In this document: piece after piece, positions 3 through 11,378 of the stretch | Layout: every line of letters starts with the position of its first letter | Numbering within the stretch: the first letter of the stretch is position 1 | Source: Spirochaetaceae bacterium | GTDB taxonomy: Bacteria > Spirochaetota > Spirochaetia > Treponematales > Breznakiellaceae | Direction: 5' to 3' | Assembly: GCA_031280115.1 (NCBI GenBank) | Contig: JAITHF010000073.1 | Location: forward strand, 1 to 11,378 | Length of the DNA stretch: 11,378 nt | Translations under genes and position numbers: made by a program | Notes under the pieces: generated by a model | What the model saw: only the letters and a program-made list of their open reading frames with translations | Told to the model about the DNA's origin: nothing | Database searches by the model: none

Positions 3-1571
3 TTTAGCCGGCCCCTCATCGGCATTGCTTCCGCGAAAAGCGAGATTGTCCCGGGCCACGCCCATCTTGACGCGGTGGCGAAAGCCGCGTCTGACGGGGT
101 GCGCCTTGCAGGCGGGGTGCCGGCGGCGTTCCCTGCAATCGGCGTGTGCGACGGTATCGCCATGGGCCACGAGGGGATGCGCTATTCCCTTGTAACCCGG
201 GAGCTTATCGCTGATTCTATCGAATGTATGGCTATGGCCCACGGGTTTGACGGGATCGTCTTTATCCCGAACTGCGACAAAATCGTGCCTGCTATGCTCA
301 TGGCCGCGGCCCGCCTTAACCTGCCTTCGGTCTTTGTTTCAGGAGGGCCTATGCTCGCAGGCCGCCTGCGGGGGCAGCCTCTCACGCTTACGGCCATGTT
401 CGAGGCGGTAGGCGCCGTAGGCTCAGGGGGCATGGACGAAGGGGAGCTTTCCCGCCTTGAAGAGGCGGCCTGCCCCGGGTGCGGCTCCTGCGCGGGGATG
501 TTCACCGCTAATTCGATGAACTGCGTTACCGAGGCCCTGGGCATGGCGCTTCCGGGGAACGGGACCATTCCGGCGGTCATGGCCGCCCGCCTGCGGCTTG
601 CCAAGAAAACCGGTATGCTCATGCTTGAAGTTCTTGAGAAAGACCTGCGCCCCAGGGCGGTTATGACCGAACAAGCCTTTATGAACGCCCTTGCCCTGGA
701 CATGGCCCTGGGGTGTTCCACCAATACTGCGCTCCACCTGCCGGCGATTGCCCATGAAGCGGGCGTCGCCCTGGGCCTTGACCGGTTCGATGCGGCCAGC
801 GGGGTAACGCCGAACCTCTGCAAACTTGCCCCCGCAGGGCCGGCGGCTGTGGAGGACCTGCATGCCGCGGGGGGCGTTCCGGCGGTGCTTTTCGAGCTTT
901 CCCGGAAACATCTGATTGATACGGCGGCGCCCACGGTGTACGGCACCCTTGGGCAGGCTCTGGGGGCGAACCAGAACCCTGAGATCATACGCCCTATCGA
1001 CAACCCCTATTCGCCCACCGGCGGCATCGCGGTTCTGCGGGGCAACCTTGCCGCCGAAGGCTGTGTGGTGAAGCAGAGCGCTGTGGCGCCGTCGATGCTT
1101 GCCCACGAGGGGCCTGCGCGGGTGTTTGATTCTGAGGAGGCGGCTTTTGACGCGATTATGTCCCGGAAGATACAGGCCGCTGACGTGGTGGTTATCCGGT
1201 ACGAGGGGCCCAAGGGCGGCCCCGGGATGAAAGAGATGCTTGCGCCCACTGCGGCGCTGTGCGGCATGGGGCTTGACGACAAGGTGGCGCTTATTACTGA
1301 CGGGCGGTTTTCCGGCGCCAGCAGGGGCGCGGCAATCGGCCACCTGTCGCCGGAGGCCGCCTTGGGGGGGCTTATCGCGCTCGTGCAGGACGGGGACCGT
1401 AGTGTTATTGACATTGAGAACCGGTCTATCAATGTCCGCTTGGGGGATGATGAAATCCAGAAGCGCCGCGCCGCCTGGTCGCCGCCGCCGCCGAAAGTAA
1501 CTACAGGCTGCCTTGCCCGCTATGCCCGCCAGGTAAGTTCCGCCGCCGCCGGCGCCATACTCCCCCCATAG
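3..1571 (+). CDS. ilvD: Dihydroxyacid dehydratase, 5'-truncated by window edge
   Basis: The enzyme dehydrates 2,3-dihydroxy-isovalerate and 2,3-dihydroxy-3-methylvalerate to the 2-keto acids in valine and isoleucine synthesis, and supplies leucine and pantothenate precursors; it is cytosolic and needs an iron-sulfur cluster. The reading frame is open from the window edge: codons 3-74 already read [17 protein letters not shown], the family N-terminal region, so the GTG at 75 is internal and the true start lies upstream. About 522 residues are visible; the family is usually about 550-560. Family motifs are intact: [11 protein letters not shown] (from nt 273, first cluster cysteine), [18 protein letters not shown] (from nt 471, cluster cysteines), and [10 protein letters not shown] (from nt 1293, with the catalytic serine). 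The C-terminus is complete. The stop codon directly abuts repeat island 1, and no separate terminator precedes the island. Sugar-acid dehydratases (Edd-like) are relatives, but the motif set fits IlvD. Confidence 0.95.
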
Positions 1572-1749
1572 CAGCCGGAGGCTGTTTCACGTGCTTCTCG
1601 CGGTGAGCGGGTTTGTGGGTTTAGTCACAACCCAGAAGATGCGCCTCATCGCGCTTTGACAGCGTTAGCGGCGCAGCGCAGGAAGCCTTTAGGGGTGGCG
1701 TGGAGGGTCTATGACCCTCCACATCTCTTAAAAAAGGCGCGAAAGCGCC
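1572..1749 (+). repeat. Left arm of island 1
   Basis: It shares blocks with the other arms: TTTAGTCACAACCC, GCGTTAGCGGCGCAGCGCAG and GGAAGCCTTTAGGGGTGG. It then has a perfect hairpin GTGGAGGGTC (1700-1709) / GACCCTCCAC (1713-1722), and GGCGC-GAAA-GCGCC (1736-1749), a GNRA-type tetraloop stem. Read on the minus strand, that last stem is followed by six T's (complement of 1730-1735), so it is also a plausible intrinsic terminator for leftward transcription coming out of the island. Confidence 0.85.
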
Positions 1750-1931
1750 GGCAGCCTCCGGCTGTTTCAGCAACCGTAGTTTGCACTATGAGCCGCAAAC
1801 CATGAAGCGCCGGCAGCCTCCGGCTGTTTCAGCCAGCCGTAGTTTGCGCTATGAGCCGCAAACCATGAAGCGCCGGCAGCCGAAGGCTGTTTCAGCAGCC
1901 GTAGTTTGCGCTATGAGCCGCAAACCATGAA
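1745..1931 (+). repeat. Three tandem 62-63 bp hairpin units
   Basis: Units start at 1745, 1807 and 1870, each with GCGCCGGCAGCC, and a fourth start at 1932 runs into the terminator. Each unit holds CAGCC-(TCC or GAA)-GGCTG, which can alternatively pair GGCTG with the following CAGCC. Each also holds a second stem GTTTGCG / CGCAAAC around an 8-nt loop (1842-1863, 1904-1925; 6 bp in the first unit at 1779-1800), and ends CATGAAGCGCC. Two more units lie in island 2 at 6813-6936. Confidence 0.85.
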
Positions 1932-1939
1932 GCGCCGGT

Positions 1940-1964
1940 AAAAAAGCCCCAAAAAGTCTGGGGC
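1940..1964 (-). terminator. Intrinsic terminator, leftward
   Basis: On the minus strand, GCCCC (1964-1960) pairs with GGGGC (1950-1946) across a 9-nt loop and is followed by six T's (1945-1940). It would end the short leftward transcript proposed to start near 2024. The same position in islands 2 and 3 also has a stem followed by CTTTTTT, with a different stem sequence. Confidence 0.65.
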
Positions 1965-2024
1965 GGCCTGTTTCCCTGAGCAGGCCGGAGCATACAACAC
2001 CATTCCGCAACAAACCGTATGCTA
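1940..2024 (-). ncRNA. Candidate small RNA, about 85 nt
   Basis: This is a predicted transcript from a start near 2024 to the terminator at 1940. It contains three stems: GCATAC (complement of 2022-2017) with GTATGC (complement of 1995-1990), CGGCCTG with CAGGCCG (1987-1981 and 1970-1964), and the terminator stem. The first half (about 1985-2040) is well conserved, inverted, in island 2 at about 7465-7530. The sequence shows a promoter-like motif, hairpins and a terminator; expression is inferred. I do not recognise it as a known RNA family. Confidence 0.35.
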
Positions 2025-2030
2025 TGCTTG

Positions 2031-2039
2031 AATATAACA
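2031..2039 (-). promoter_or_regulatory. Extended -10 promoter-like motif TGTTATATT
   Basis: Read leftward, TG-T-TATATT has the TGn extension of an extended -10 element. No good -35 hexamer lies 17 bp upstream; that place is taken by the inverted repeat CAGACA-AAAA-TGTCTG. The nearest array 1a site (GACTCA at 2069-2074) would be centred about 47 bp upstream of the likely start, an activator-like distance. The same motif and spacing occur in island 2 at 7468-7476. Confidence 0.4.
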
Positions 2040-2057
2040 CTAAACGGCAGACAAAAA

Positions 2058-2202
2058 TGTCTGTATTTGACTCAAATACAGACATTTCTGACTCGGATAC
2101 AGCGTCCCCTGAGTCAGGGAAAGACATTTTTGACTCATCCCTCAGGATTTTTAGACCATCCCTCATGATTTTTGGCTCACCCCTCATGATTTTTGAGCCG
2201 CC
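2058..2202 (+). repeat. Array 1a: seven degenerate 21-bp units
   Basis: Sites lie exactly 21 bp apart at 2069, 2090, 2111, 2132, 2153, 2174 and 2195, reading GACTCA, GACTCG, GAGTCA, GACTCA, AGACCA, GGCTCA and GAGCCG. The flanks change in blocks: AAATACA near the promoter, CATCCCTC-ATGATTTTT at the far end. The first unit is a perfect 27-bp palindrome (2058-2070 and 2072-2084 around C2071), and the third contains CCCTGAGTCAGGG. The promoter-proximal units match island 2; the far flank matches the edge of island 3. Confidence 0.85.
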
Positions 2203-2254
2203 CCTAAAGGCCTCCTGCGCCGCGGCCTTTGCCGGCGGCTCCGGCGGGCGTTTT

Positions 2255-2474
2255 TTGGTGCCAAAGTGACTTATCTTGGCGCCAAGGAAACTTATCTTGG
2301 CGCCACGGAACTCTTTCTTGGTGCCACGGAAACTTATCTTGGCGCCACGGAACTCTTTCTTGGCGCCAAGGAAACTTATCTTGGCGCCAAGGAACTCTTT
2401 CTTGGCGCCAAGGAAACTTATCTTGGCGCCACGGAACTCTTTCTTGGTGCCACGGACACTTATCTTGGCGCCAA
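2255..2474 (+). repeat. Array 1b: eleven TTGGCGCCAA-type sites at exact 21-bp period
   Basis: TTGGYGCCAM sites begin at 2255, 2276, 2297, 2318, 2339, 2360, 2381, 2402, 2423, 2444 and 2465 with no indel. The intervening 11 bp mostly alternate between GGAAACTTATC and GGAACTCTTTC, giving a 42-bp higher-order repeat. TTGGCGCCAA is a perfect palindrome. All frames are open across the array, and one would encode alternating TYLGAKE / LFLGATE heptads from a GTG at 2266. No ribosome binding site precedes it, so coding is unsupported. Confidence 0.92.
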
Positions 2475-2522
2475 TATCACCGATCCTGTCCCCGGATAGA
2501 TCATTATGCTGCAACGGATTAC

Positions 2523-2845
2523 CGGCGCTTCGCGCCTCTTTTAAGAGAATTTGGGGGAACCAGTTCCCCCAAACCCCCGCTAAAGGCTTCCTGCGTTGCG
2601 CCCTTCCGCCTGCGGCGTCCGCTGAGGCGCCGCTTCGGGGTTGCGCCTCAAATTGCAAACCCTCCCGCTACAAGAAGCGCGTGAATCCCCCGCAGGGGGC
2701 TTCCTGCGTTGCGCCGCTCACGCCATCGAAGTCCGCTGAGGCGCCGCTTGTGGGTTGTGACTAAAATTGCAAACCCTATCGCAACAAGAAGCGCGTCAAA
2801 CAGCCTCCGGCTGCCCGCAGGGGGTTGAAAACCCCGCAGGGGGTG
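2523..2845 (-). repeat. Right arm of island 1 (inverted, partly duplicated)
   Basis: It begins GGCGC-TTC-GCGCC followed by TCTTTT (2524-2542), a terminator-like structure for rightward transcription. Next is an 11-bp perfect stem TTTGGGGGAAC (2550-2560) / GTTCCCCCAAA (2563-2573). Two copies of the distal arm block follow, with TTCCTGCG at 2588 and 2701, CCGCTGAGGCGCCGCTT, and CCCCCGCAGGGGG hairpins. It ends about 30 bp before thrA. Confidence 0.8.
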
Positions 2846-2854
2846 TGGTATGGT
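2825..2854 (+). promoter_or_regulatory. Possible thrA promoter overlapping island 1 edge
   Basis: TTGAAA (2825-2830), an 18-bp spacer and TATGGT (2849-2854) resemble a sigma-70 promoter. The predicted start near 2861 would leave a leader of about 15 nt carrying the GGAG ribosome binding site at 2865-2868, 7 nt before the ATG. The -35 hexamer lies inside the terminal repeat. The same -10 variant TATGGT is seen before the tRNA gene. Confidence 0.4.
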
Positions 2855-2875
2855 GGTAAAAAATGGAGTAGCATT

Positions 2876-5398
2876 ATGCTTGTTGTGAAATTTGGCGGCA
2901 CCTCCCTGGGATCAATAGACGCTATGGGCAGGGTTATCGCGCTATTAAAAGACCCGGAGCACGCGGGCAGGGTGCGCGTGGCAGTGGCCTCAGCGTTCTC
3001 CGGCATGACCGACGGGCTCATCGACCTCGCCCGCCGCGCCCGCGCCGGAGACCATACCTATACGGGCCTCCTTAAAATCATGCGGAAGCGGCACGAAGAT
3101 ATGGCGGCGTTCTTTCTTGCAGGCGAGGGAAAAAAACAGGCGCAAAATGACCTTGACGCGCTGTTCGCCGAACTTGCCCGTATGCTGGACGGCGTGTCCA
3201 TCCTGCAAGAGCTTTCCCCCAGAATACTTGACAGTATCATGAGTTTCGGAGAACGCCTCTCAGCGTCCCTCCTTGCTAAAATCCTCTCCGGCGCGGGTAT
3301 CAGCGCCCAGTATCTTGACGCCCGCACGCTCATCAAAACCGACCGCCACCACGGGAACGCCCACTTCCTTGCTGAAGAAACCTTTGACGCAATCGCCTCG
3401 TTTTTTAATGACGCGCCCCCTTCCCTCCTCTATGCGGCCACCGGCTTTATCGGTTCAAGCCTTCAGGGGGTTACCACCACTCTGGGGCGGGGCGGCTCGG
3501 ACTTGACCGCCTCGATTTTCGGCGCGGCCCTGGCAGTGGAGGAAGTGGAAATCTGGACCGACGTGGACGGCATTATGACCGCGGACCCGAAACTCGTGAA
3601 AAACGCCTTCAGGATTGACCAGATTTCCTATGTGGAGGCAATGGAACTTTCCCATTTCGGCGCCAAAGTGCTGTATACCCCCACGATTAAACCGGCGCTG
3701 AAAAAAGGCATCCCCATTTATATCCGCAATACCTTTAACCCCCGCGCAGGCGGGACCAGAGTAACCGAAAACGCCAAAGAAAGCCCCTATGCCATTCGCG
3801 GCATAAGCTCTATGACCCATGTGGCGGTCATCCGTATTCAAGGCTCCGGCATGGTGGGGGTTTCAGGCTTCTCCTCCCGCCTCTTCGGCGCCCTCGCGCG
3901 GCGGGGCCTCAACATCCTGCTCATTACCCAGAGTTCAAGCGAATACTCTATCTGCTTCGCAGTGCTGCCGGAAGACACGGAAAGCGCGGTCATGGCCGCG
4001 CACGAGGAGTTTTACCGGGAAATCAGCGCCGGCGCCATTGACGAGCCCTATGCCGAGCGGGATATGGCGGTTATCGCGGTGGTAGGGTCCCGCATGAAAA
4101 AGACCGCAGGCATCGCGGGGCGGGTCTTTCACGCCCTGGGCAGGAACGGCATCAACGTGGTGGCCGTCGCCCAGGGGTCTTCAGAGCTTAATATCTCGGC
4201 AGTTATCTCCCGCCAGGACGAGGCCAAAGCGGTAAACGCCATACATGAGGCGTTTTTCCTTGCAGGGATGCGCTCGGTAAACCTGTTCCTGCTGGGCACC
4301 GGCCTTATCGGCGGCACCATGCTCGACCAGATCGCGGAACACAGGGAGGCGCTGGCCCGGGATCATCAGGTACGGATTAACCTTGCAGGAGCGGCGAACT
4401 CGCGGTATATGCTCTTTGACCCGGAGGGGCTTGACCCGAAAGAAGCGAAGGCCCTCCTCAAAGCGCCGAAAGGCAAAGGCTCTGCCTGCGCCGCGCCTCA
4501 AGAGGAGGCTGCGGCAAAAGACGGGCGGCTTGAGGCGTTTGACCTTTCCCGCTTTATCGGCATTATGCAATCCATGAACCTGCCTAATTCGGCGTTCTGC
4601 GACTGTACCGCGGATGACGCGGTATCCGGCAGGTACGCGGATATTTTGATGGGCTCTATTCCGGTTGTTACGCCGAACAAGCGGGCGAACTCAGGCTCCC
4701 TTGCGTATTACAAGAAAATCGTGTCCTATGCCAAAGAGCGGGGGATACCCTACCTCTACGAGGTTACAGTGTGCGCGGGCCTTCCGGTTATCTCTACCCT
4801 GCGGGATCTGTTTCTTTCCGGCGACAAGGTGCGGCGCATTGAGGCGGTGCTTTCCGGCACGCTGAGCTATATTTTTAATAATTACGACGGGACCGCGCCG
4901 TTTTCCGCGCTGGTCCGGGCGGCGAAAGAAAAGGGGTACACCGAACCGGACCCGCGGGACGACCTTAACGCTATGGACGCGGCCCGGAAGGCGCTTATCC
5001 TTGCCCGTGAATGCGGGATGCCTCTTGAGTTTCCCGCAGTGGCCATCGAGCCGCTGCTGCCGGCCTCGTGCTTTGAGGCGCCCACGGTGGAGGCGTTTTT
5101 CACGGAGCTTGAGAAGGCTGACGCCTCTTTTGAGGAGCGCCGCGCCGCGGCGGCGGCGGAAGGCAAGGCCCTGCGGTATGTGGCGGTCATCGAGGAAGGG
5201 TCCGCGCGGCTTTCCCTGCGCCCGGAGAGCGCTGAAAGCCCGTTCCGCTCCCTGGTGGACGCGGATAATATGGTGGTTATCACGTCCCAGCGGTATTCCT
5301 CGCTCCCTATGGTGATAAAGGGCCCCGGCGCCGGCGCCCAAGTTACTGCCGGCGGGGTGCTGGCGGATATTCTCCGCATTGCCAAGACCCTGGTGTAA
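2876..5398 (+). CDS. thrA: Bifunctional aspartokinase I / homoserine dehydrogenase I
   Basis: The protein catalyses two steps of the aspartate pathway to threonine, methionine and lysine: phosphorylation of aspartate by ATP, and NAD(P)H reduction of aspartate semialdehyde to homoserine. The start at ATG 2876 is chosen for GGAG 7 nt upstream and because MLVVKFGGTSLGS is the canonical aspartokinase N-terminus; an in-frame TTG at 2825 lies in repeat DNA. The product is 840 residues. Domains: kinase about 1-300 (KFGGTS 5-10, SFGERLSA 123-130, GRGGSD 204-209); two ACT regulatory domains about 315-390 and 395-465; dehydrogenase with Rossmann motif GTGLIGG 474-480, NKRAN 601-605 and EPDPRDDLNAMDAARK 690-705. 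The protein is about 20 residues longer than E. coli ThrA (820); the excess maps to a Lys/Ala/Glu-rich stretch near 520-552. Threonine feedback is expected from the ACT domains. thrB and thrC are not adjacent. Confidence 0.95.
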   Translation: MLVVKFGGTSLGSIDAMGRVIALLKDPEHAGRVRVAVASAFSGMTDGLIDLARRARAGDHTYTGLLKIMRKRHEDMAAFFLAGEGKKQAQNDLDALFAELARMLDGVSILQELSPRILDSIMSFGERLSASLLAKILSGAGISAQYLDARTLIKTDRHHGNAHFLAEETFDAIASFFNDAPPSLLYAATGFIGSSLQGVTTTLGRGGSDLTASIFGAALAVEEVEIWTDVDGIMTADPKLVKNAFRIDQISYVEAMELSHFGAKVLYTPTIKPALKKGIPIYIRNTFNPRAGGTRVTENAKESPYAIRGISSMTHVAVIRIQGSGMVGVSGFSSRLFGALARRGLNILLITQSSSEYSICFAVLPEDTESAVMAAHEEFYREISAGAIDEPYAERDMAVIAVVGSRMKKTAGIAGRVFHALGRNGINVVAVAQGSSELNISAVISRQDEAKAVNAIHEAFFLAGMRSVNLFLLGTGLIGGTMLDQIAEHREALARDHQVRINLAGAANSRYMLFDPEGLDPKEAKALLKAPKGKGSACAAPQEEAAAKDGRLEAFDLSRFIGIMQSMNLPNSAFCDCTADDAVSGRYADILMGSIPVVTPNKRANSGSLAYYKKIVSYAKERGIPYLYEVTVCAGLPVISTLRDLFLSGDKVRRIEAVLSGTLSYIFNNYDGTAPFSALVRAAKEKGYTEPDPRDDLNAMDAARKALILARECGMPLEFPAVAIEPLLPASCFEAPTVEAFFTELEKADASFEERRAAAAAEGKALRYVAVIEEGSARLSLRPESAESPFRSLVDADNMVVITSQRYSSLPMVIKGPGAGAQVTAGGVLADILRIAKTLV

Positions 5399-5555
5399 CC
5401 CCCGCCGCAGGCGCCGGAGGGAAAAGGCTGGAACCGTATGCCCCGTAAACTAAGCCCCCCAGGGTACGCGGTTTTAGCGGCAGAAAGAACATACCCATAC
5501 GCCTGATGTACGCCATGCGCACGGGCATTAAAATAAAAAGCCCTTGGCGGCGAAG

Positions 5556-6695
5556 ATGCGTTTGAATCATTTTTTGTTTATTATAGGCTTGGCGCTTTTC
5601 TGGTACGCCCTGGTGCCGCTTGCCGGTTCTTTTATAAGCCGGCGTATATGGCGGGTGTTCCGGGAGCGGTTTAACGGTTTGCGGCTCCGGCCTTTTCTCG
5701 ATTACGCCGGATGCCGCAGGGCTGACGGGGAAACCTACCGGTTCATAGGCGGGGTTGAGGCGGTGGAAGAGGCGGTTCTTTGGGTGCGGAGCGAAACGCT
5801 GACCGTGCCGGTGCTCCTTGAGGGCGCGAAAACCTATATGCTTCCCACGCCGGAACGGGACGGCGATTGGGGCGCGGCGCCGGAGAAGATACGCTGGAAT
5901 CAGGTTACGGCGCTGACCGAAGGGGCGAAAGTCTTTGTGGGCGGGCCTTTGGTACGCAGGGGCCCGCGCCGCCTCTTTGCATCCACGGCGCAGCAGCCGC
6001 TCCTTATTATTTTCTACGACGGCCCTGACCGTTCCCTGGGCCTGCGGGCGGTCGGGGCGCGGCGGCATAAAAACGAATACTGGAACGCCCTAACCCCCTA
6101 TGCTTTTACCTGCGGCGCCTTTTCCCTGCTTATGGTGGCCATGAGTTTTCTCTCCAGGCCGGCGTTCCGCCTCACCATGATTACCGCGTTTTTTGCCCTT
6201 TTTATCCCGTTGTTCCCGTTCTTTCCGCCCGGGGTGCTGCTTACCCTGCTGTACCGGCAGCTGTGGTGGCAGGGGCGCTTATTCCGGGTGTATCAGGATC
6301 TGGTCATGGCCCCGCTCTGTTACGTGCCGCAGGCTCAGGGCAGCGGCGCGGCGCCTTGGGAGTGCCGCCTTCCTGACGGCGAGCGGTATGGCGCGGCGTA
6401 TCTCTCCCAGGAAGCCCTGCAAAGATGCCGTATCCCTCTGATTATTCCTGAAAGCCCGGTGAAAGACTGGTATGTTTTCGGCGCGCTCAGGACTGAAGAG
6501 GCAGGCAGGCAGGCGCTTGCGGAACCGCAAGACCCGTTTGCGCTGTTTGGGGCGGTGCCGGGGAAACCGGCGGCCCTGGCGTCCCGTTACAGGCGCAAAG
6601 CCCTGGTGCTGGAACTAGTTTCCTGCGCCGTATTCCTTGGGGGCATAGGGCTTAACATCCTGTTTATCTGGTTCGCCATCCTCCTCTTCGTATAG
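5556..6695 (+). CDS. Unrecognised membrane protein, about four TM segments
   Basis: I do not recognise the family. From ATG 5556 the product is 379 residues; a TTG at 5544 would add four residues, and neither has a strong ribosome binding site (GGCGG at 5546-5550 is the best). Hydrophobic segments: about 5-27, a pair at about 182-232, and a C-terminal one at about 351-379, ending at the membrane (FIWFAILLFV). Between the first and second is a soluble stretch of about 150 residues with beta-rich blocks (YRFIGGVEAVEE, TVPVLLEGAK, GAKVFVGGPLVRRGPRRLF) loosely resembling the small beta-barrel regions of NfeD/GIDE-type membrane proteins; that likeness is weak inference. A second soluble stretch (about 233-350) contains Pro- and aromatic-rich sequence. 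It lies 157 bp after thrA in the same direction, with no clear terminator or promoter between, so cotranscription is possible. Its stop abuts repeat island 2. Confidence 0.75.
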   Translation: MRLNHFLFIIGLALFWYALVPLAGSFISRRIWRVFRERFNGLRLRPFLDYAGCRRADGETYRFIGGVEAVEEAVLWVRSETLTVPVLLEGAKTYMLPTPERDGDWGAAPEKIRWNQVTALTEGAKVFVGGPLVRRGPRRLFASTAQQPLLIIFYDGPDRSLGLRAVGARRHKNEYWNALTPYAFTCGAFSLLMVAMSFLSRPAFRLTMITAFFALFIPLFPFFPPGVLLTLLYRQLWWQGRLFRVYQDLVMAPLCYVPQAQGSGAAPWECRLPDGERYGAAYLSQEALQRCRIPLIIPESPVKDWYVFGALRTEEAGRQALAEPQDPFALFGAVPGKPAALASRYRRKALVLELVSCAVFLGGIGLNILFIWFAILLFV

Positions 6696-6817
6696 TTTAC
6701 TGCGCCTCATCGCGCTTCTATGGCGCACTTGCTCAAAGCATGTTGCGCTAATGGGTGGTTTGGAGGGTCTATGACCCTCCAAATTCTCTATTCTCTTAAA
6801 AGAGGCGCGAAAGCGCC
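6696..6817 (+). repeat. Left arm of island 2
   Basis: A diverged copy of the island 1 left arm. It has TGCGCCTCATCGCGCTT, an 11-bp stem TTTGGAGGGTC (6759-6769) / GACCCTCCAAA (6773-6783), CTCTT/AAGAG, and the tetraloop hairpin GGCGC-GAAA-GCGCC (6804-6817). On the minus strand the last hairpin is followed by TCTTTT, a weak leftward terminator. Confidence 0.8.
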
Positions 6818-6936
6818 GGCAGCCTCCGGCTGTTTCAGCAGCCGCCGTTTGCGCTATGAGCCGCAAACCATGAAGCGCCGGCAGCCGAAGGCTGTTCCCT
6901 TACGGGAAGTTCGCAAAAGAATACGCGAAACATGAA
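6813..6936 (+). repeat. Two 62-bp hairpin units
   Basis: Units start at 6813 and 6875. The first matches the island 1 units and keeps GTTTGCG / CGCAAAC (6847-6868). The second differs in sequence but can still pair: TTCCC (6895-6899) / GGGAA (6904-6908), and TTCGC (6910-6914) / GCGAA (6925-6929), followed by the usual CATGAAGCGC. Changed sequence with kept pairing is a sign of structural constraint. Confidence 0.8.
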
Positions 6937-7483
6937 GCGCTGATAAAAAAGCCCCCAAATCCGCTTCGATGAGAAGCGGCGGGGACTTGTAATACCGGTC
7001 TTTGATGTCCTGCAATGTAACACGGACGCGGGTGTTCAAGACTTCCGAGCGGGGCGCGGCGCCGGCGGTTTGAAGCGCCGCCGGCGCGGGAAAATCCGGC
7101 TCAGGGGACGCTGTATCTGACTCAGGGGACGCTGTATCCGGCTCAGGGGACGCTGTATCCGGCTCAGGGGACGCTGTATCCGGCTCAGGGGACGCTGTAT
7201 CTGACTCAGGGGACGCTGTATCTGACTCAGGGGACGCTGTATTTGACTCAGGGGACGCTGTATTTGACTCAGGGGACGCTGTATTTGACTCAGGGGACGC
7301 TGTATCTGAGTCAGGGGACGCTGTATCTGAGTCAGGGGACGCTGTATCTGAGTCAGAAATGATTGTACCTGAGTCAGAAATGATTGTATTTGAGTCAGAA
7401 ATGATTGTATTTGAGTCAGAAATGATTGTATTTGAGTCAAATACAGACTTTTTTGTCTGCCGTTTAGTGTTATATTCAAGCAT
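6854..7483 (-). CDS. Doubtful ORF, 209 aa, heptad-repeat reading of the array
   Basis: The frame begins MLEYNTKRQTK, then 7-residue repeats (SNTIISD, SDTASPD, PDTASPE variants) encoded by the 21-bp array, then about 60 residues (VRVTLQDIKDRYYKSPP and onward) ending in the hairpin units. A frame with the same MLEYNTKRQTK start occurs in island 1 (plus, 2024-2269) but ends differently. No Shine-Dalgarno sequence precedes either ATG. Differences between units are frequently amino-acid-changing (D/E, S/P, N/D), which argues against selection on a protein. The predicted promoter at 7468-7476 points the opposite way. The tail VRVTLQDIKDRYYKSPP is the only stretch that looks like ordinary protein, and could be a gene remnant. 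Confidence 0.15.
   Translation of the reverse strand: MLEYNTKRQTKKSVFDSNTIISDSNTIISDSNTIISDSGTIISDSDTASPDSDTASPDSDTASPESNTASPESNTASPESNTASPESDTASPESDTASPEPDTASPEPDTASPEPDTASPESDTASPEPDFPAPAALQTAGAAPRSEVLNTRVRVTLQDIKDRYYKSPPLLIEADLGAFLSALHVSRILLRTSRKGTAFGCRRFMVCGS
6945..6984 (-). terminator. Intrinsic terminator at the far end of array 2, leftward
   Basis: On the minus strand an outer CCCC (6984-6981) / GGGG (6956-6952) stem encloses an inner perfect stem CCGCTTC / GAAGCGG (6979-6973 and 6967-6961), followed by C and six T's (6950-6945). It sits where islands 1 and 3 also have a stem followed by CTTTTTT, with different stem bases. Confidence 0.6.
7096..7445 (+). repeat. Array 2: seventeen 21-bp units with a TGASTCA core
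   Basis: Sites start at 7098 and recur every 21 bp to 7434 without a single indel. On the plus strand they read GGCTCA (7098, 7140, 7161, 7182), GACTCA (7119, 7203-7287) and GAGTCA (7308-7434). Neighbouring units are alike in blocks: 7203-7224 after CTGTATCT, 7245-7287 after CTGTATTT, 7308-7350 with GAGTCAGGGG, 7371-7434 with ATGATTGTA. TGACTCA and TGAGTCA are 7-bp odd palindromes. There are no unique spacers, so it is not a CRISPR array. The last unit adjoins the promoter-like motif at 7468. Confidence 0.93.
7468..7476 (+). promoter_or_regulatory. Extended -10 promoter-like motif TGTTATATT
   Basis: This is the same TGTTATATT with the same surroundings as in island 1, here facing right. No -35 hexamer is visible; the -35 region holds the inverted repeat CAGAC-TTTTTT-GTCTG (7444-7459). 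The last array site (7434-7439) is centred about 46 bp before the predicted start near 7483, and the other sites follow upstream in 21-bp steps, that is two helical turns. Confidence 0.4.
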
Positions 7484-7636
7484 AGCATACGGTTTACTGC
7501 GGGATAGTGCTGTATGCTCCGGCCTGCCTGTTGAGCCTGCCCCAAATACGCCTTGCGCCGCCTTTCTGATGAGCGCGGAACGAGTAAAAAAAGCGGGAAA
7601 AGCGGAGCGGGCATATATATTTGGGGGCGTTTTTTA
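7483..7636 (+). ncRNA. Candidate small RNA, about 150 nt
   Basis: This is the predicted transcript from near 7483 to the T-tract at 7630-7635. Stems: GCATAC (7485-7490) / GTATGC (7512-7517), shared with island 1, and a terminal stem CCCCAAATA (7540-7548) / TATTTGGGG (7618-7626) followed by GCGTTTTTT. The loop of that terminal stem is 69 nt, against about 9 nt in the island 1 counterpart. Transcription is inferred, not shown. Confidence 0.35.
7540..7636 (+). terminator. Intrinsic terminator with an expanded loop
   Basis: A nine-bp stem (7540-7548 with 7618-7626), then GCG and six T's. It lies where island 1 has GCCCC/GGGGC plus six T's. The 69 bp inside the loop look like an insertion. Confidence 0.45.
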
Positions 7637-7639
7637 TTG

Positions 7640-7945
7640 AGCGCTGCGCTTCGCTTGCGCTTTTTAAGAGAATTTGGAGGGTCATAGACCCTCCAAACCA
7701 CCCCTAAAGGCTTCCTGCGCTGCGCCGCTAACGCCATCGAATTCCGCTGAGGCGCCGCTTCTGGGTTGTGACTAAACCCCCAAACCCGCTCGCCGCGTGA
7801 AGCACGTGAATCCCCCGCAGGGGGCTTCCTGCGCCGCGCCGCTAACGCCATCGAATTCCGCTGAGGCGCCGCTTCTGGGTTGTGACTAAACGTGCAAACC
7901 CTCTCGCTACAGGAAGCACCTGAAACAGCCTCCGGCTGCGCAGGG
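7640..7945 (-). repeat. Right arm of island 2 (inverted, partly duplicated)
   Basis: It begins with AGCGC / GCGCT (7640-7644, 7657-7661) plus a T-run to 7665, a rightward terminator candidate. Next is an 11-bp stem TTTGGAGGGTC (7673-7683) / GACCCTCCAAA (7687-7697). Two copies of the distal block follow (TTCCTGCG at 7712 and 7826), with CGCTAACGCCATCGAATTCC, CTGGGTTGTGACTAAA and CCCCCGCAGGGGG. It ends in CAGCCTCCGGCTG and then related G-rich sequence that meets the glycosyltransferase stop codon. Confidence 0.8.
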
Positions 7946-7953
7946 GGCAGCCT

Positions 7954-9090
7954 TCAGCTGCGCCAGAGGGGTTTGACCCTGCAAAATCCTAATATCGTGA
8001 GAAACGTGAAATACAGGGGGGTAAAAACCGTGAGCGCAAGATATACCGGCCCTTTCCCGGGGAGCGCCGAACCGAAAAGACCGAGGGTGGCCGCCGTATT
8101 GAGGGACATCGCCGCCAGCACCGCCCCTGAAAGGGGCAGCAAAGACGGCGCGGCCCAAAGAAACGGCATGGCTGTCATGCCCATAGCAATCGTTATCATC
8201 AAAAAACCGAAATTAAAACGGGTAGCCCTGTCAGGACTAAAAAGCCCCCCGTTATTCCAGCGCAAAGTCTGGTTCACCAGGGCCTTCCAGGTCTGCTCCC
8301 CTTCGGTTATGACAAAAATATCCCTCCCCACTGCCGAGCGCACGCAGTACGCTGAGGAAGCGCGCACCTTGGCGATAAGCGCCGCGTCTTCCGTAGGGGA
8401 CCAGGGCACCGCGCCGTAGCCGCCTATGGCCTCAAGCGCGGCGCGGCGGACGATGAGGTTGTTGCCGAACCCGCCTCCTGCCGCCCCAAGGCCGGTGGAG
8501 CCTGCAAGGTACATATACCGTACTGCATGATCAAAACACTGGTACAGGTGGAAAAACCCCGCGCCCCCGGGACGCTTGAACACCGGCCCAAGGGTAACGC
8601 CGGTACGCGGGTCAGCCATCCGCGCCGCCATTGCCCGTATCCACCCTGGGGGAACCGCGCAGTCCCCGTCAGTAAAAAGCAGCAGCTCCCCTGCGGCGGC
8701 CTCGATGCCTTTCCCCAGGGCGTACTGTTTGCGGTTCTCTGCGGCGTTCTCTTCCAGGGTGATGATCCTGACCATGCTGCCCCGCTCAAGCGCGAAATGC
8801 CGGAGCATCGCCGGCGTCCCGTCAGAAGACCGGTCGTCAACAAAGATAAACTCCGCTGCCGGATAGTCCTGCGCCGCAAGGCTCTGAAGGAGGCCCCCCA
8901 GCCGGCGCTCTTCGTTATGCACCGGAATAACCACCGAGACCGGCGGGAGCGCTGAGGCGGGGCCCGCGCTGGAGGCGGCTTTATCCCGCCGCCATTCCAG
9001 GAAGAGCCCCAGGAGGAGCGCGGCGTGGAGGGACATGAAGAGCAGGGCAAAGCCGAATCTGAACACGTCATATAAAACAAAAAAAATCAT
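7954..9090 (-). CDS. Membrane glycosyltransferase, family 2
   Basis: A GT-A fold, inverting glycosyltransferase that probably transfers a sugar from a nucleotide sugar at the inner face of the cytoplasmic membrane; acceptor and product are unknown. The start at ATG 9090 has GGGGG 5 nt upstream. The product is 378 residues. An N-terminal hydrophobic segment (about 5-31) is followed by the catalytic domain: VSVVIPVHNEE 51-61, VDDRSSDGT 84-92, the DxD motif in FTDGDC 139-144, TED 233-235 as likely general base, and QTLRW 274-278 (the QxxRW-type motif of processive and related enzymes). Two or three hydrophobic segments follow (about 295-318, 320-342, 346-368). This topology resembles ceramide glucosyltransferase-like and polysaccharide-synthesis family 2 enzymes. 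The last codons (RVKPLWRS) lie at the edge of repeat island 2, so its C-terminus may have been shaped by the repeat. Confidence 0.88.
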   Translation of the reverse strand: MIFFVLYDVFRFGFALLFMSLHAALLLGLFLEWRRDKAASSAGPASALPPVSVVIPVHNEERRLGGLLQSLAAQDYPAAEFIFVDDRSSDGTPAMLRHFALERGSMVRIITLEENAAENRKQYALGKGIEAAAGELLLFTDGDCAVPPGWIRAMAARMADPRTGVTLGPVFKRPGGAGFFHLYQCFDHAVRYMYLAGSTGLGAAGGGFGNNLIVRRAALEAIGGYGAVPWSPTEDAALIAKVRASSAYCVRSAVGRDIFVITEGEQTWKALVNQTLRWNNGGLFSPDRATRFNFGFLMITIAMGMTAMPFLWAAPSLLPLSGAVLAAMSLNTAATLGLFGSALPGKGPVYLALTVFTPLYFTFLTILGFCRVKPLWRS

Positions 9091-9100
9091 TCAAACCCCC

Positions 9101-9129
9101 TTGATTATCCTACGTTATTCCGCTATGGT
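9101..9129 (+). promoter_or_regulatory. Sigma-70-type promoter of the tRNA gene
   Basis: TTGATT (9101-9106), a 17-bp spacer and TATGGT (9124-9129) lie 10 bp before the mature tRNA 5' end. A leftward TTTACC-17 bp-GATAAT reading overlaps it and could serve the divergent glycosyltransferase gene, but would leave a leader of only a few nucleotides. Confidence 0.6.
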
Positions 9130-9139
9130 AAAAGCAGCC

Positions 9140-9212
9140 GGGGAATTAGCTCAGTTGGTAGAGCGATAGGTTCGCAATCTATAGGCCAGGGGTTCAAATC
9201 CCCTATTCTCCA
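9140..9212 (+). tRNA. tRNA-Ala (anticodon CGC)
   Basis: A 73-nt cloverleaf. The acceptor is GGGGAAT / ATTCTCC with the G3-U70 pair that identifies alanine tRNAs, and discriminator A73. The D stem is GCTC/GAGC with GG in the loop. The anticodon stem is ATAGG/TCTAT with loop TTCGCAA, giving anticodon CGC, which reads the GCG codon common in this GC-rich DNA. The variable loop is AGGCC, the T stem AGGGG/CCCCT, and the T loop TTCAAAT. The 3' CCA is not encoded and must be added. No T-run terminator follows; the next sequence is the C-rich tract. Confidence 0.95.
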
Positions 9213-9374
9213 TCCGGCCCGCCGCCCGCGCCGCCCAGCCGCCCAGCCGCCCACCAGCACCAGCCCGCCGCCCACCAGCACCGACCAGCCGCCGCCCACC
9301 AGCACCAGCCCGCCGCCCACCAGCACCGGCCAGCACCAGCCGACCGCACTGACCAGCCCATACCGCCCAGCCGC
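9213..9374. repeat. C-rich low-complexity tract with four GCCGCCCACCAGCACC repeats
   Basis: Exact 16-bp copies start at 9246, 9267, 9291 and 9312 (spacings 21, 24, 21), inside a stretch made almost only of C, G and A on the plus strand. The minus strand is rich in GG and GGG runs. It fills the whole gap between the tRNA 3' end and the murJ stop. A minus-strand reading made of Gly, Ala, Val and Leu is open but is low complexity and not a credible gene. Confidence 0.85.
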
Positions 9375-10949
9375 TCACGGTTTCTTTTTCTTAAAAAATC
9401 TGATTATCCTCCGCGCATAGGGGTCTTGCGCCAGCGCAAGGAGCAGGAACCCTGCGGCGCCGTACACCAGCGCGCTGATGCCCAGGGGAAGGCCGTACAC
9501 GAGCATCCTGCTTGTGCGCCCTCCGAACAGGGCAGCAAGGGCCGGCTTGAGGGCATAGACCGGCAGCACCGCAAGGAGCGCGAACACGGCGATTTTGAGC
9601 GTGTACAAGAGGCCGGACCGCACCATCTTTCCTACTGCCGCGTGGGGGTTTTTCGTTAAAAAAAAGAAGAGGAGCGCCGTATTTATCCCGCTTGCTGCGG
9701 AAAGGGAGAGGGCGATGCCCGCGCCTTTAAGGGGGGCTGAGAGGGCGAGGGCGAGTACGCTGTTGGCGGCGAATGAGATGACCCCCGCAAGGGACGGGGA
9801 CGCGGAATCGTGACAGGCGTAGAACGCCGGCGCCAGCACCCGGTTAAGGGCGATGAAAAACAGCCCTATAATATGAAAGGTGAAGGCGTTTAAGGTGAGG
9901 CGCACGGATTCTTCCCCGAAACTGCGTATCTGAAAAAAGAGGCGGATAAGATATTCCCCTTGGACAAGGAGAAAAAAGGTGGCCGGAACCGTAATCAGCG
10001 CGATAACCCGCAGCGCCCCGGTGAGCTTCGCGCGGTACTGGTCCCATTGGGACGATTTCGCGTACTCCGCCAGGTCCGGCAGGAGCACTGTGCCTATGGA
10101 CACGGCGAACACCCCCAGCATAAGTTCCTGAAGGCGCAAAGAATACTGGAGGCTTGAGGCCACCCCTTCCCCGACGCGCCGGGCCAGGGCTGTGGAAACC
10201 AGATCATTCACCTGATACGCGGCCATCCCGATAATGGTGGGTACAATGAGGCGCAGGACCTTACGCACCCCCGGATTGGCCAGGGCCCGGGGCAGCGCCA
10301 CGAAACAGAAGGCCCAGCCTTTTTTAAGGATAAAGGGGAACTGGACAGCGGCCTCAAGAAAGCCCCCTGCCAGTATGCCTATGGCCATTGCCCGCGCCGG
10401 ATTAGCGGTGAAGCGGCTTAACCCAAAGGCCGCGCCGATCGTAACGAGGTTAAGCAGGATAGGCGCCAGCCCGGAGGGGGTGAATATCCGCAGGCTGTTA
10501 AGGATGCCCTGAAACAGCGCCGCAAGGGAGATAAAGGCCAGAAAGGGAAACATAAGGCGGGTGAGAAAGACCGTTTCGTCAAACAGTTCCTGTTCCATTT
10601 TGAAAAGGGGCATAATGAGGGGCGTAAAGGCCATGCCCGCGATGACCGCCAGGGTTACGAAAAAGGTGAGGAACGTCCAGATACAGGAGAGGAATTCCCG
10701 TATAGCCTCTTTGTCGCCCTCGATAAGATACGCCTTGAACGTGGGGATAAAGGCCACCGCGATAGAACCTTCGGCAAAAAGCCGGCGGAACAGGTTGGGG
10801 ATGAGAAAGGCCACGGAGAAAGCGTCGGAAAGCGCGGTGGTTCCCAAGAAGCTGGCTTTCACCATTTCCCTGAACAGCCCCAGCACACGGGAGGCCAAGG
10901 TGAGCAGGGATAAGACAGAACCGTGCCGCACTAGGAGAGAACGCGCCAT
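9375..10949 (-). CDS. murJ: Lipid II flippase MurJ (MviN family)
   Basis: A polytopic inner-membrane protein of the MOP superfamily that flips undecaprenyl-linked lipid II outward for peptidoglycan synthesis. The product is 524 residues against 511 in E. coli, strongly hydrophobic throughout, consistent with the usual 14 transmembrane helices. Recognised family blocks near the N-terminus are SRVLGLFREM (20-29) and SDAFSVAFLIPNLFRRLFAEG (41-61), holding the conserved Arg and Asp residues of the central cavity; later blocks include VPTIIGMAAYQVNDLV and APAFYACHDSASPS. The C-terminus ends in a Lys-rich tail (FFKKKKP). The start is ATG at 10949, with GAGG 8 nt upstream; the ribosome binding site sits in a tandem 17-bp duplication. 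The 3' end faces the tRNA gene across a C-rich tract with no evident terminator. It has no cotranscribed neighbour in the window. Confidence 0.95.
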   Translation of the reverse strand: MARSLLVRHGSVLSLLTLASRVLGLFREMVKASFLGTTALSDAFSVAFLIPNLFRRLFAEGSIAVAFIPTFKAYLIEGDKEAIREFLSCIWTFLTFFVTLAVIAGMAFTPLIMPLFKMEQELFDETVFLTRLMFPFLAFISLAALFQGILNSLRIFTPSGLAPILLNLVTIGAAFGLSRFTANPARAMAIGILAGGFLEAAVQFPFILKKGWAFCFVALPRALANPGVRKVLRLIVPTIIGMAAYQVNDLVSTALARRVGEGVASSLQYSLRLQELMLGVFAVSIGTVLLPDLAEYAKSSQWDQYRAKLTGALRVIALITVPATFFLLVQGEYLIRLFFQIRSFGEESVRLTLNAFTFHIIGLFFIALNRVLAPAFYACHDSASPSLAGVISFAANSVLALALSAPLKGAGIALSLSAASGINTALLFFFLTKNPHAAVGKMVRSGLLYTLKIAVFALLAVLPVYALKPALAALFGGRTSRMLVYGLPLGISALVYGAAGFLLLALAQDPYARRIIRFFKKKKP

Positions 10950-10981
10950 CGAAAGAACCTCACAATCGAAAGAACCTCACA
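10948..10981 (+). repeat. Tandem 17-bp duplication over the murJ ribosome binding site
   Basis: Two exact copies of ATCGAAAGAACCTCACA (10948-10964 and 10965-10981). Read on the minus strand, each copy carries TGTGAGG followed by TTCTTTCGAT. The inner copy leads into the ATG start; the outer one reads CGATTG at the matching place, so it has the Shine-Dalgarno element without a start codon. Confidence 0.9.
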
Positions 10982-11013
10982 AGCCGGCGCGCACACTGCC
11001 GCCGGCCCTCTGT

Positions 11014-11022
11014 AGTATAGCA
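11014..11022 (-). promoter_or_regulatory. Possible extended -10 promoter of murJ
   Basis: Minus strand TG-C-TATACT (complement of 11022-11014) gives a predicted start near 11007 and a leader of about 58 nt. That leader contains GCCGGC on both sides of a short loop (10983-11006) just before the duplicated ribosome binding site. The only -35-like hexamer, TTGCAT (11044-11039), has a long 19-bp spacer and overlaps the island 3 edge. Confidence 0.4.
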
Positions 11023-11233
11023 CGTGCTGCTTGCGCCTATGCAACCCCCTGCGCCCCCGAAGGGGGTTTTAAGTGCTTCTTGTAGCGATAGGGTTTGCAA
11101 TTTTAGTCACAACCCCGAAGCGGCGCCTCAGCGGGATTCGCAGGCGTTAGTGACGCATAGCACGTCGCGTTTATGGGGGGTTTGGGGGAACTGGTACCCC
11201 CATATTCTTTTAAAGAGGCGCGAAAGCGCCGAT

Positions 11234-11259
11234 AAAAAAGCCCTCCAAGTTCATGAGGG
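11234..11259 (-). terminator. Intrinsic terminator, leftward, island 3
   Basis: On the minus strand CCCTC (11259-11255) pairs with GAGGG (11245-11241) and is followed by C and six T's (11239-11234). The position equals the island 2 terminator at 6945-6984, with other stem bases. Confidence 0.55.
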
Positions 11260-11378
11260 ATGAGCCAGATTTGTCTAAACCTGAGCCAGATTTGTCTAAA
11301 CCTGAGCCAGATTTGTCTAAACCTGAGCCAGATTTGTCTAAACCTGAGCCAGATTTGTCTAAACCTGAGCCAGATTTG
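11260..11378 (+). repeat. Array 3: at least six 21-bp units, truncated
   Basis: GAGCCA sites start at 11262, 11283, 11304, 11325, 11346 and 11367, exactly 21 bp apart, with AGATTTGTCTAAACCT as the nearly invariant remainder. The complement of the first unit, TGGCTCATCCCTCATGA, closely matches the far end of array 1a (TGGCTCACCCCTCATGA at 2173), tying this array to the same family despite different unit sequence. Confidence 0.92.

Follow-up and report, generated by a model that had tools for sequence, protein, structure and literature searches.

Composite intergenic repeats with inverted arms and 21-bp arrays in a spirochaete lineage

The window analysed here, the 11,378 nucleotides of contig JAITHF010000073.1 (Spirochaetaceae bacterium, GenBank assembly GCA_031280115.1), is one contig (C108) of a genome bin with an estimated completeness of 62%, whose 301 contigs total 1,844,453 bases. 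Judged from the relative G003, whose sample code is tied to a paper on termite guts, its source spirochaete probably came from a termite gut. Three intergenic islands with inverted arms in common lie between the genes of the window, at 1572-2875, 6696-7953 and approximately 11040-11378, the last of which is cut by the contig end. An earlier note, made from the sequence alone, had described them as a dispersed composite repeat with inverted arms and variable cores. They are best read as members of a repeat family that has spread through the intergenic DNA of this spirochaete lineage.

Results

Island 1 lies between ilvD and thrA, island 2 between a GT2 glycosyltransferase gene and an open reading frame (ORF) that has no Pfam match, and island 3 upstream of murJ, where it reaches the contig end, so a right arm cannot be shown there (Table 1). 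Inverted matches join the arms at 1570-1736 and 7660-7826 (84% over 167 nt), 1980-2101 and 7406-7527 (92% over 122 nt), 7657-7825 and 11053-11221 (73% over 169 nt), and 1571-1687 and 2698-2814 (80% over 117 nt). The earlier note had seen the same assembly in all three gaps; the inverted arms are common to all, but island 2 has merely a partial, diverged A block on its left. Repeat finding (family D7) agrees with the note on the distal block of the right arm in islands 1 and 2, which is present twice in tandem, at offsets of 113 and 114 bp. The 62-bp hairpin units number 3.1 at 1743-1938 and two at 6821-6940, the latter copies being 94% and 66% identical. In line with the note, which had seen no transposase, none of the island ORFs tested has a transposase domain, and the islands show no gene of a known transposon or prophage.

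The family is dispersed in its own genome. Because the left arm of island 1 gives at least 88 matches there (40 of 510 candidates scored) and the core of island 2 at least 91 (40 of 271 scored), the arm family is not a product of chance; the arms are not confined to the window, as the earlier note had allowed they might be. Our main sample consists of contigs C1-C40 (228,194 bases), which their arbitrary numbering makes nearly unbiased, though not a random draw; the anatomy set consists of the window, C1-C40 and 20 contigs picked for having matches (352,510 bases). In C1-C40, block A matches 70 times, on 32 of the 40 contigs, block B 26 times, block C 25 times and block K 5 times. Blocks and arrays make up at least 8.8% of this 228-kb sample, counting gaps of up to 350 bp between neighbouring matches and omitting parts outside the block models, a load as high as the note had suspected. 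For 45 of the 61 clusters in C1-C40, gene calling finds no neighbour on one side, where the contig ends; the others sit between genes that are convergent (6), divergent (3) or in tandem (4), or fall within a crude ORF call (3).

The anatomy of the family is solid. Around the 82 merged 21-bp arrays of the anatomy set, blocks within 450 bp are mostly directed inward, the nearest one being so oriented for 44 of 51 arrays on the left and for 44 of 46 on the right, which bears out the inverted arms; 22 of these arrays have blocks on both sides, and 7 lack blocks without touching a contig end. A 21-bp array lies inside 16 of the 19 pairs of neighbouring inverted A blocks that are no more than 1.5 kb apart. 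Joining blocks over up to 400 bp gives 107 clusters, 52 of which touch a contig end, with 20 solitary arrayless arms and 14 complete elements of 507-1359 bp, all inside contigs. The minimum of 1.2 kb that the note had set for each element thus holds for islands 1 and 2 but not for the family, and with half-kb copies in existence, size is not supported as the feature that sets it apart from repetitive extragenic palindromic (REP) sequences, bacterial interspersed mosaic elements (BIMEs) or miniature inverted-repeat transposable elements (MITEs). Terminal inverted repeats without an internal gene are present, as in MITEs, and so are palindromic intergenic modules of alternating orientation and high copy number, as in REP/BIME. 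The intergenic DNA of the relatives has diverged too far for alignments that would reveal target-site duplications, and no end of a related transposon was identified. One conserved flank (F1) adjoins the array 41 times and another (F2) 8 times, with different units beyond. Tandem repeats of 69 bp (GTAACGCTGGTAAGGC type) are common to the own genome (L126, 1841-2256) and G003 (L143, 1129-2288).

Table 1 Features of the three islands and genes of the window
Feature	Position	Strand	Remark
Island 1 left border hairpin CAGCCGGAGGCTG	1572-1584	+	Immediately 3' of ilvD stop codon
Island 1 left arm, block A	1590-1698	+	Family block with 70 matches in C1-C40
Island 1 block B	1700-1752	+	Palindrome GGAGGGTC..GACCCTCC and hairpin with outward T-run
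Island 1 block C	1753-1938	+	Three 62-bp hairpin units
Island 1 block T	1936-1970	+	Terminator-like hairpin, T-run on minus strand
Island 1 block K	1966-2065	+	Conserved leader preceding TGACTC-type arrays
Island 1 first 21-bp array	2126-2205	+	ATTTTTGACTCATCCCTCATG type; degenerate units also immediately upstream
Island 1 second 21-bp array	2255-2474	+	x10.5; CTTG-GCGC-CAAG plus GAAACTTAT type
Island 1 right block B	2522-2557	-	Partial
Island 1 right arm, inner A copy	2574-2681	-	71% identity with left A
Island 1 right arm, outer A copy	2698-2795	-	78%
Island 2 left arm, block A	6701-6757	+	Partial, diverged
Island 2 left block B	6761-6820	+	
Island 2 C units	6821-6940	+	Two copies, second diverged
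Island 2 21-bp array	7100-7439	-	TGACTC-type units
Island 2 block K	7442-7527	-	93% identity with island 1 K
Island 2 right block B	7661-7695	-	Partial
Island 2 right arm, inner A copy	7698-7806	-	89%
Island 2 right arm, outer A copy	7823-7919	-	80%
Island 3 border hairpin CCCCCGAAGGGGG	11054-11066		Precedes block A
Island 3 block A	11073-11180	+	72%
Island 3 block B	11197-11231	+	Partial
Island 3 21-bp array	11261-11378	+	x5.6; TGAGCCAGATTTGTCTAAACC; cut by contig end
ilvD	3-1571	+	
thrA	2876-5398	+	Label for fused aspartate kinase-homoserine dehydrogenase
ORF	5556-6695	+	No Pfam match
GT2 glycosyltransferase	7954-9090	-	
tRNA-Ala(CGC)	9140-9212	+	
murJ	9375-10949	-	

The cores had been called variable, and their units do differ, but a rule had been overlooked: they are built of tandem 21-bp units, often palindromic. 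The 21-bp period is near-invariant and the unit sequence varies between arrays. Tandem Repeats Finder reports 49 arrays of period 21 in C1-C40, further ones at 42, 63 and 84, and none at 20, 22 or 23; a third-order Markov control gave one period-21 array in five pooled replicas of the sample. Periods unrelated to 21 also occur in C1-C40 (for example 44, 62 and 69), and isolated calls at 20 or 22 come from outside it (G003 and loci from a biased choice). Once merged, the C1-C40 arrays number 44, or 193 per Mb, of which 22 reach contig ends; 27 of the 44 (118 per Mb) span four units or more. Where successive TTG-N4-CAA sites stand no more than 70 bp apart, the spacing is 21 bp 68 times and 42 bp 4 times, and never any other; TGASTCA sites are spaced 21 bp 34 times and 42 bp 4 times, and CGCG-N4-CGCG sites 21 bp 12 times. 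The same three motifs yield no 21-bp pair in G003. These direct repeats thus share with iterons a phase of about two helical turns. Among bacteria in which more than 20 satellites were counted, the accessible part of PMC6749651 tabulates a density of at most 23 per Mb, and it describes transposed non-coding families as rare. The array density here lies above that bacterial maximum, in a comparison that is rough, given that PMC6749651 requires at least four repeats and internal regularity, for which 118 per Mb is the nearer figure. Outside the three islands, an armless GC-rich array of 21-bp period (GCCGCCCACCAGCACCA type) occupies 9241-9358 of the window, just after tRNA-Ala(CGC).

Sixty-eight indel-free arrays of at least three copies (45 from the own genome, 20 from G003, 2 from G001 and 1 from G004) fall into 35 unit families, which are more than 6 of 21 bases apart in every rotation and strand. 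Many units have one plan in common: a 4-bp half-site, a variable centre of 4 bp, the complementary half-site and a 9-bp spacer. In 16 of the 35 families the unit holds a perfect 4+4 inverted repeat around a 4-bp centre, where 3.6 are expected and 200 shuffles give at most 10; the 13 cases of a 2-bp centre owe part of their number to these palindromes, and circular reading of the same repeats yields the centres of 9 and 11. Dyads with all six pairs complementary occur in 12 of the 68 arrays (1.4 expected from shuffles) and those with five of six in 30 (16.2 expected), few arrays being significant singly.

The 41 of 70 own arrays that can be anchored on a related spacer collapse to 17 units, in which complementarity is found at 43 of the 68 outer pair cells, compared with 26.5 for shuffled halves (maximum 39 in 5,000). 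This excess indicates that the half-sites change together, with the proviso that the shuffle overstates independence among partly related units and that 29 of the 70 own arrays are without that 9-bp spacer. The matched half-sites are TTTG/CAAA, CTTG/CAAG, GTTG/CAAC, CGCG/CGCG, TTGG/CCAA and TCTG/CAGA. Half-site variation of even-centred dyads is about half that of the far spacer, and neighbouring dyads with the same or nearly the same half-site stand 21 bp apart 81 times versus 1.7. In a solitary case, L183, the phase is kept across 525 bp while the units pass from CGCG to TTTG.

Six genomes of the genus were compared, namely the own genome (G000) and G001-G005. The arm matches at least 53 times in the own genome and at least 14 times in G003 (40 of 536 and 40 of 133 candidates scored), twice in G005, once in G002 and not in G001 or G004; the arm and core queries that the earlier note had proposed thus give dispersed copies in the own genome and, for the arm, fewer in relatives. 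In small samples, arrays per Mb amount to 193 in the own genome, 177 in G003, 42 in G001, 35 in G004 and 0 in G002 and G005, and to 8 in 19 other genomes of the taxonomic family (one stretch each). Since arrays are found in genomes with few or no arms, they reach further than the arms. Sister species and other genera carry 21-bp arrays with different arms or none, and arms and arrays are therefore separable. Three TTG-N4-CAA sites in 21-bp phase occur in 6 of 117 genomes (own 411, G061 9, G003 8, and G030, G056 and G064 1 each). The reversed control pattern gives 11 in the own genome, 39 in G003, 11 in G061, 3 in G027 and 1 in G048, so a strong TTG/CAA preference is seen in the own genome only. 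The arrays of G061 and G056 are without family arms.

At one junction an array is present in a relative and absent here. G001 has a 21-bp array, with GGTA-CAAT-TACC plus 9 as its commonest unit, in the gap that separates a tolC-like gene from one resembling that of a membrane fusion protein (names assigned by eye), and the orthologous own junction is closed, the two frames meeting without an array. Upstream of murJ, G001 carries a 21-bp array (L276, 3098-3250) whose unit is unrelated to that of island 3; with neighbours not matched, no array lies within about 1.5 kb of murJ in G002, G004 or G005, and the G003 contig stops there. At the thresholds used, neither an array nor a family block turns up beside thrA in four relatives, likewise with neighbours not matched. 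In G003, L141 1-1100 contains four successive 21-bp arrays of unlike units, a B-like palindrome and other arm sequence; these arrays lie upstream of the orthologue of the ORF at 5556-6695 and follow the same plan with different arms.

Strict exact patterns were also run against two contig collections. viral_contigs gave no match to three unit-pair patterns and one arm pattern, and genome_contigs none to one exact arm pattern, a strict search that diverged copies may escape and that may exclude near-own records. One unit-pair pattern has two matches in genome_contigs: a contig that appears to be G003:C56 and one binned as Bacteroidales under the same sample code (Pc512_bin96, JAITHZ010000018). 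The latter ends in an armless CTTATTTTG-CTAG-CAAA array (L264, 3766-3945), the rest of the contig having a GC content of 0.39; mis-binning or horizontal transfer may be the cause.

Discussion

We read the islands, with a probability of about 0.4, as non-coding, non-autonomous, lineage-specific composite repeats whose phased palindromes would dock dimeric DNA-binding proteins. Given that 21 bp correspond to two turns of B-DNA, the array is, we infer, most likely a docking platform: its dyads would share one face of the DNA, and a predicted dimeric protein could bind them in an iteron- or centromere-like manner. Dimer docking is the simplest functional reading because the half-sites are matched, the centres are variable and no sign of coding constraint is seen. 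The hairpin of block B directs its T-run out of the core, and arms with such terminator-like hairpins may end transcripts leaving the core and insulate the neighbours. The arms may also supply homology or mobility, and the copy number together with the absence of a transposase domain from the island ORFs tested suggests spread in trans by machinery encoded elsewhere.

Several results weigh against this reading. Three of the 19 inverted A pairs (L130, L132 and L161) enclose no detectable array, and 26 of the 68 arrays have at most four of six dyad pairs, near the single-array shuffle level. Odd-centred dyads show no half-site conservation. One-sided changes within arrays number 189 and double compensatory ones only 16, and neighbouring 4-4-4 dyads with unlike half-sites are 21 bp apart only 3 times, compared with a mean of 8.5 at other distances. 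Common descent of the arrays could also hold the period without any function.

Protein docking is followed closely by a second explanation, nearly as likely, in which the family is a selfish or neutral satellite with an inherited period. Recombination or a cryptic transposase would have spread the arms, and slippage or unequal exchange would enlarge the arrays, which would be minisatellites without a protein reader that keep their period through few founders and rare indels. This reading accords with the copy number, the restriction to a lineage and the intergenic placement; the related spacer in 41 of the 70 own arrays suggests descent, and half-sites are homogeneous inside arrays, where compensatory changes are few. 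However, one period is held by 35 unit families that differ so widely, and neither the excess of 4-4-4 dyads nor the low half-site variation of even-centred dyads is expected of neutral repeats.

An unlikely but more far-reaching variant of protein docking would make the arrays private addresses across the chromosome. Selection would then act on geometry (the 21-bp phase and the 4-4-4-9 dyad) while half-sites diversify from array to array, and the readers would be diversifying dimeric proteins of chromosome organization, or the arrays would counter iteron-type plasmids and phages by acting as decoys or as incompatibility sites. If so, a conserved plan with unconserved sequence would represent a previously undescribed kind of DNA element.

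That the working form is a DNA hairpin or RNA structure (cruciform, mRNA stability or termination) rather than a protein-bound array seems improbable. Across 62 arm copies, the border hairpin (CAGCCGGAGGCTG and CCCCCTGCGGGGG) and the B palindrome each fall into two main classes that keep pairing, which may reflect module exchange rather than base-by-base compensation, and the remaining arm mostly shows little covariation. Terminator-like sites number 6 in island 1 (1.7 expected, standard deviation 1.3) and 4 in island 2 (1.4 expected, standard deviation 1.4), some of them outside block B. However, a 4-bp stem such as TTTG/CAAA is weak, the strict 21-bp period would be left unaccounted for, and the scarcity of compensatory changes within arrays does not favour pairing. 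A known structured RNA was rejected, given that Rfam at E up to 1 matches nothing in the window except the tRNA.

There is similarly little likelihood that the family is a BIME/REP-like mosaic mobilized by a REP-associated tyrosine transposase (RAYT, Y1_Tnp). The repeats are hairpin-rich, composite, intergenic and of high copy number, and the bin has one Y1_Tnp gene. The foot tags of REP palindromes are GTAG or CGTC (accessible part of PMC3733652); the four bases before the TTTGC hairpin of 31 C units are GTCG in 10, GTAG in 9, GTTG in 5 and others in 7, so that GTNG fits 26 copies but exact GTAG only 9. Y1_Tnp was the transposase family compared across the genomes, and its counts (own 1, G003 1, G004 16, G005 11, G001 8, G002 0) run opposite to element load, being high in G004, G005 and G001, where arms are rare or absent, and in this incomplete bin no family block lies beside the own gene at E up to 1e-3. 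A RAYT-driven BIME is unsupported on gene counts and linkage.

We hold it very improbable that the arrays encode heptapeptide-repeat proteins, 21 bp being seven codons. The ATG frame of block K (MLEY...) does stay open in all 27 copies found until it enters the array or the sequence ends, arrays have slightly more open frames than column-permuted controls (3.7 versus 3.2 per array), and two repetitive frames have weak Pfam matches. Against this, those matches are all under the curated cut-offs, the second codon position of block K is the most variable, with a nonsynonymous-to-synonymous polymorphism ratio (pN/pS) of 0.77 over 29 copies, and a codon-phase test of 48 arrays gave a mean p of 0.68 with one value below 0.05. 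With no codon-phase signal, this pN/pS and no third-position excess, heptapeptide coding was rejected. An assembly artefact, as a bin of 301 contigs at 62% completeness with 22 of 44 merged arrays at contig ends might suggest, has next to no probability in view of the 14 complete elements inside contigs and the same period in bins of sister species and other genera.

The literature searched, which leaves most subscription journals outside, contains no description of such arrays and no named family of this plan, as the earlier note had supposed; under repeat terms, the accessible parts of PMC13067680 and PMC12236494 held nothing relevant. If proteins do read the arrays, they would form an abundant class of bacterial DNA element set by geometry and missed by homology searches. 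If the arrays are selfish, the bacterium would bear a very large burden of non-coding satellite DNA, in which one could study how repeat length stays constant amid sequence turnover. They may also bear on the assembly of such bins into short pieces, given that half of the sampled arrays touch contig ends.

Among known systems, MITEs and Helitron derivatives with internal tandem repeats likewise combine conserved ends with a variable core, are non-autonomous and reach high copy numbers. The present family differs in its bacterial host (Helitrons being eukaryotic), its palindromic 21-bp core and in having no known mobilizing enzyme. Plasmid iterons and centromere arrays consist of tandem sites about two helical turns apart that are read by DNA-binding proteins, and the sites here have the same spacing. 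No initiator or partition gene is found among the window genes (ilvD, thrA, the ORF without Pfam match, GT2 and murJ), neighbours elsewhere not having been surveyed. Unlike iterons and centromeres, the arrays are chromosomal, occupy well over 100 places per Mb-scale sample and change their unit from one array to the next. BIME/REP and REP doublets forming hairpins (REPINs), as presented in the accessible parts of PMC2817692 and PMC3116915, are also high-copy, intergenic, palindrome-rich and gene-free composites of modules, but these repeats have long inverted arms, a total length of 0.5-1.4 kb and a fixed 21-bp tandem array, and no link of them to Y1 transposases was found. The prokaryotic satellites in the accessible part of PMC6749651 share the dispersed, non-coding tandem repeats, which that paper reports for Leptospira interrogans; the family described here departs from them in one fixed period across many unit families, in its inverted arms and in its higher density.

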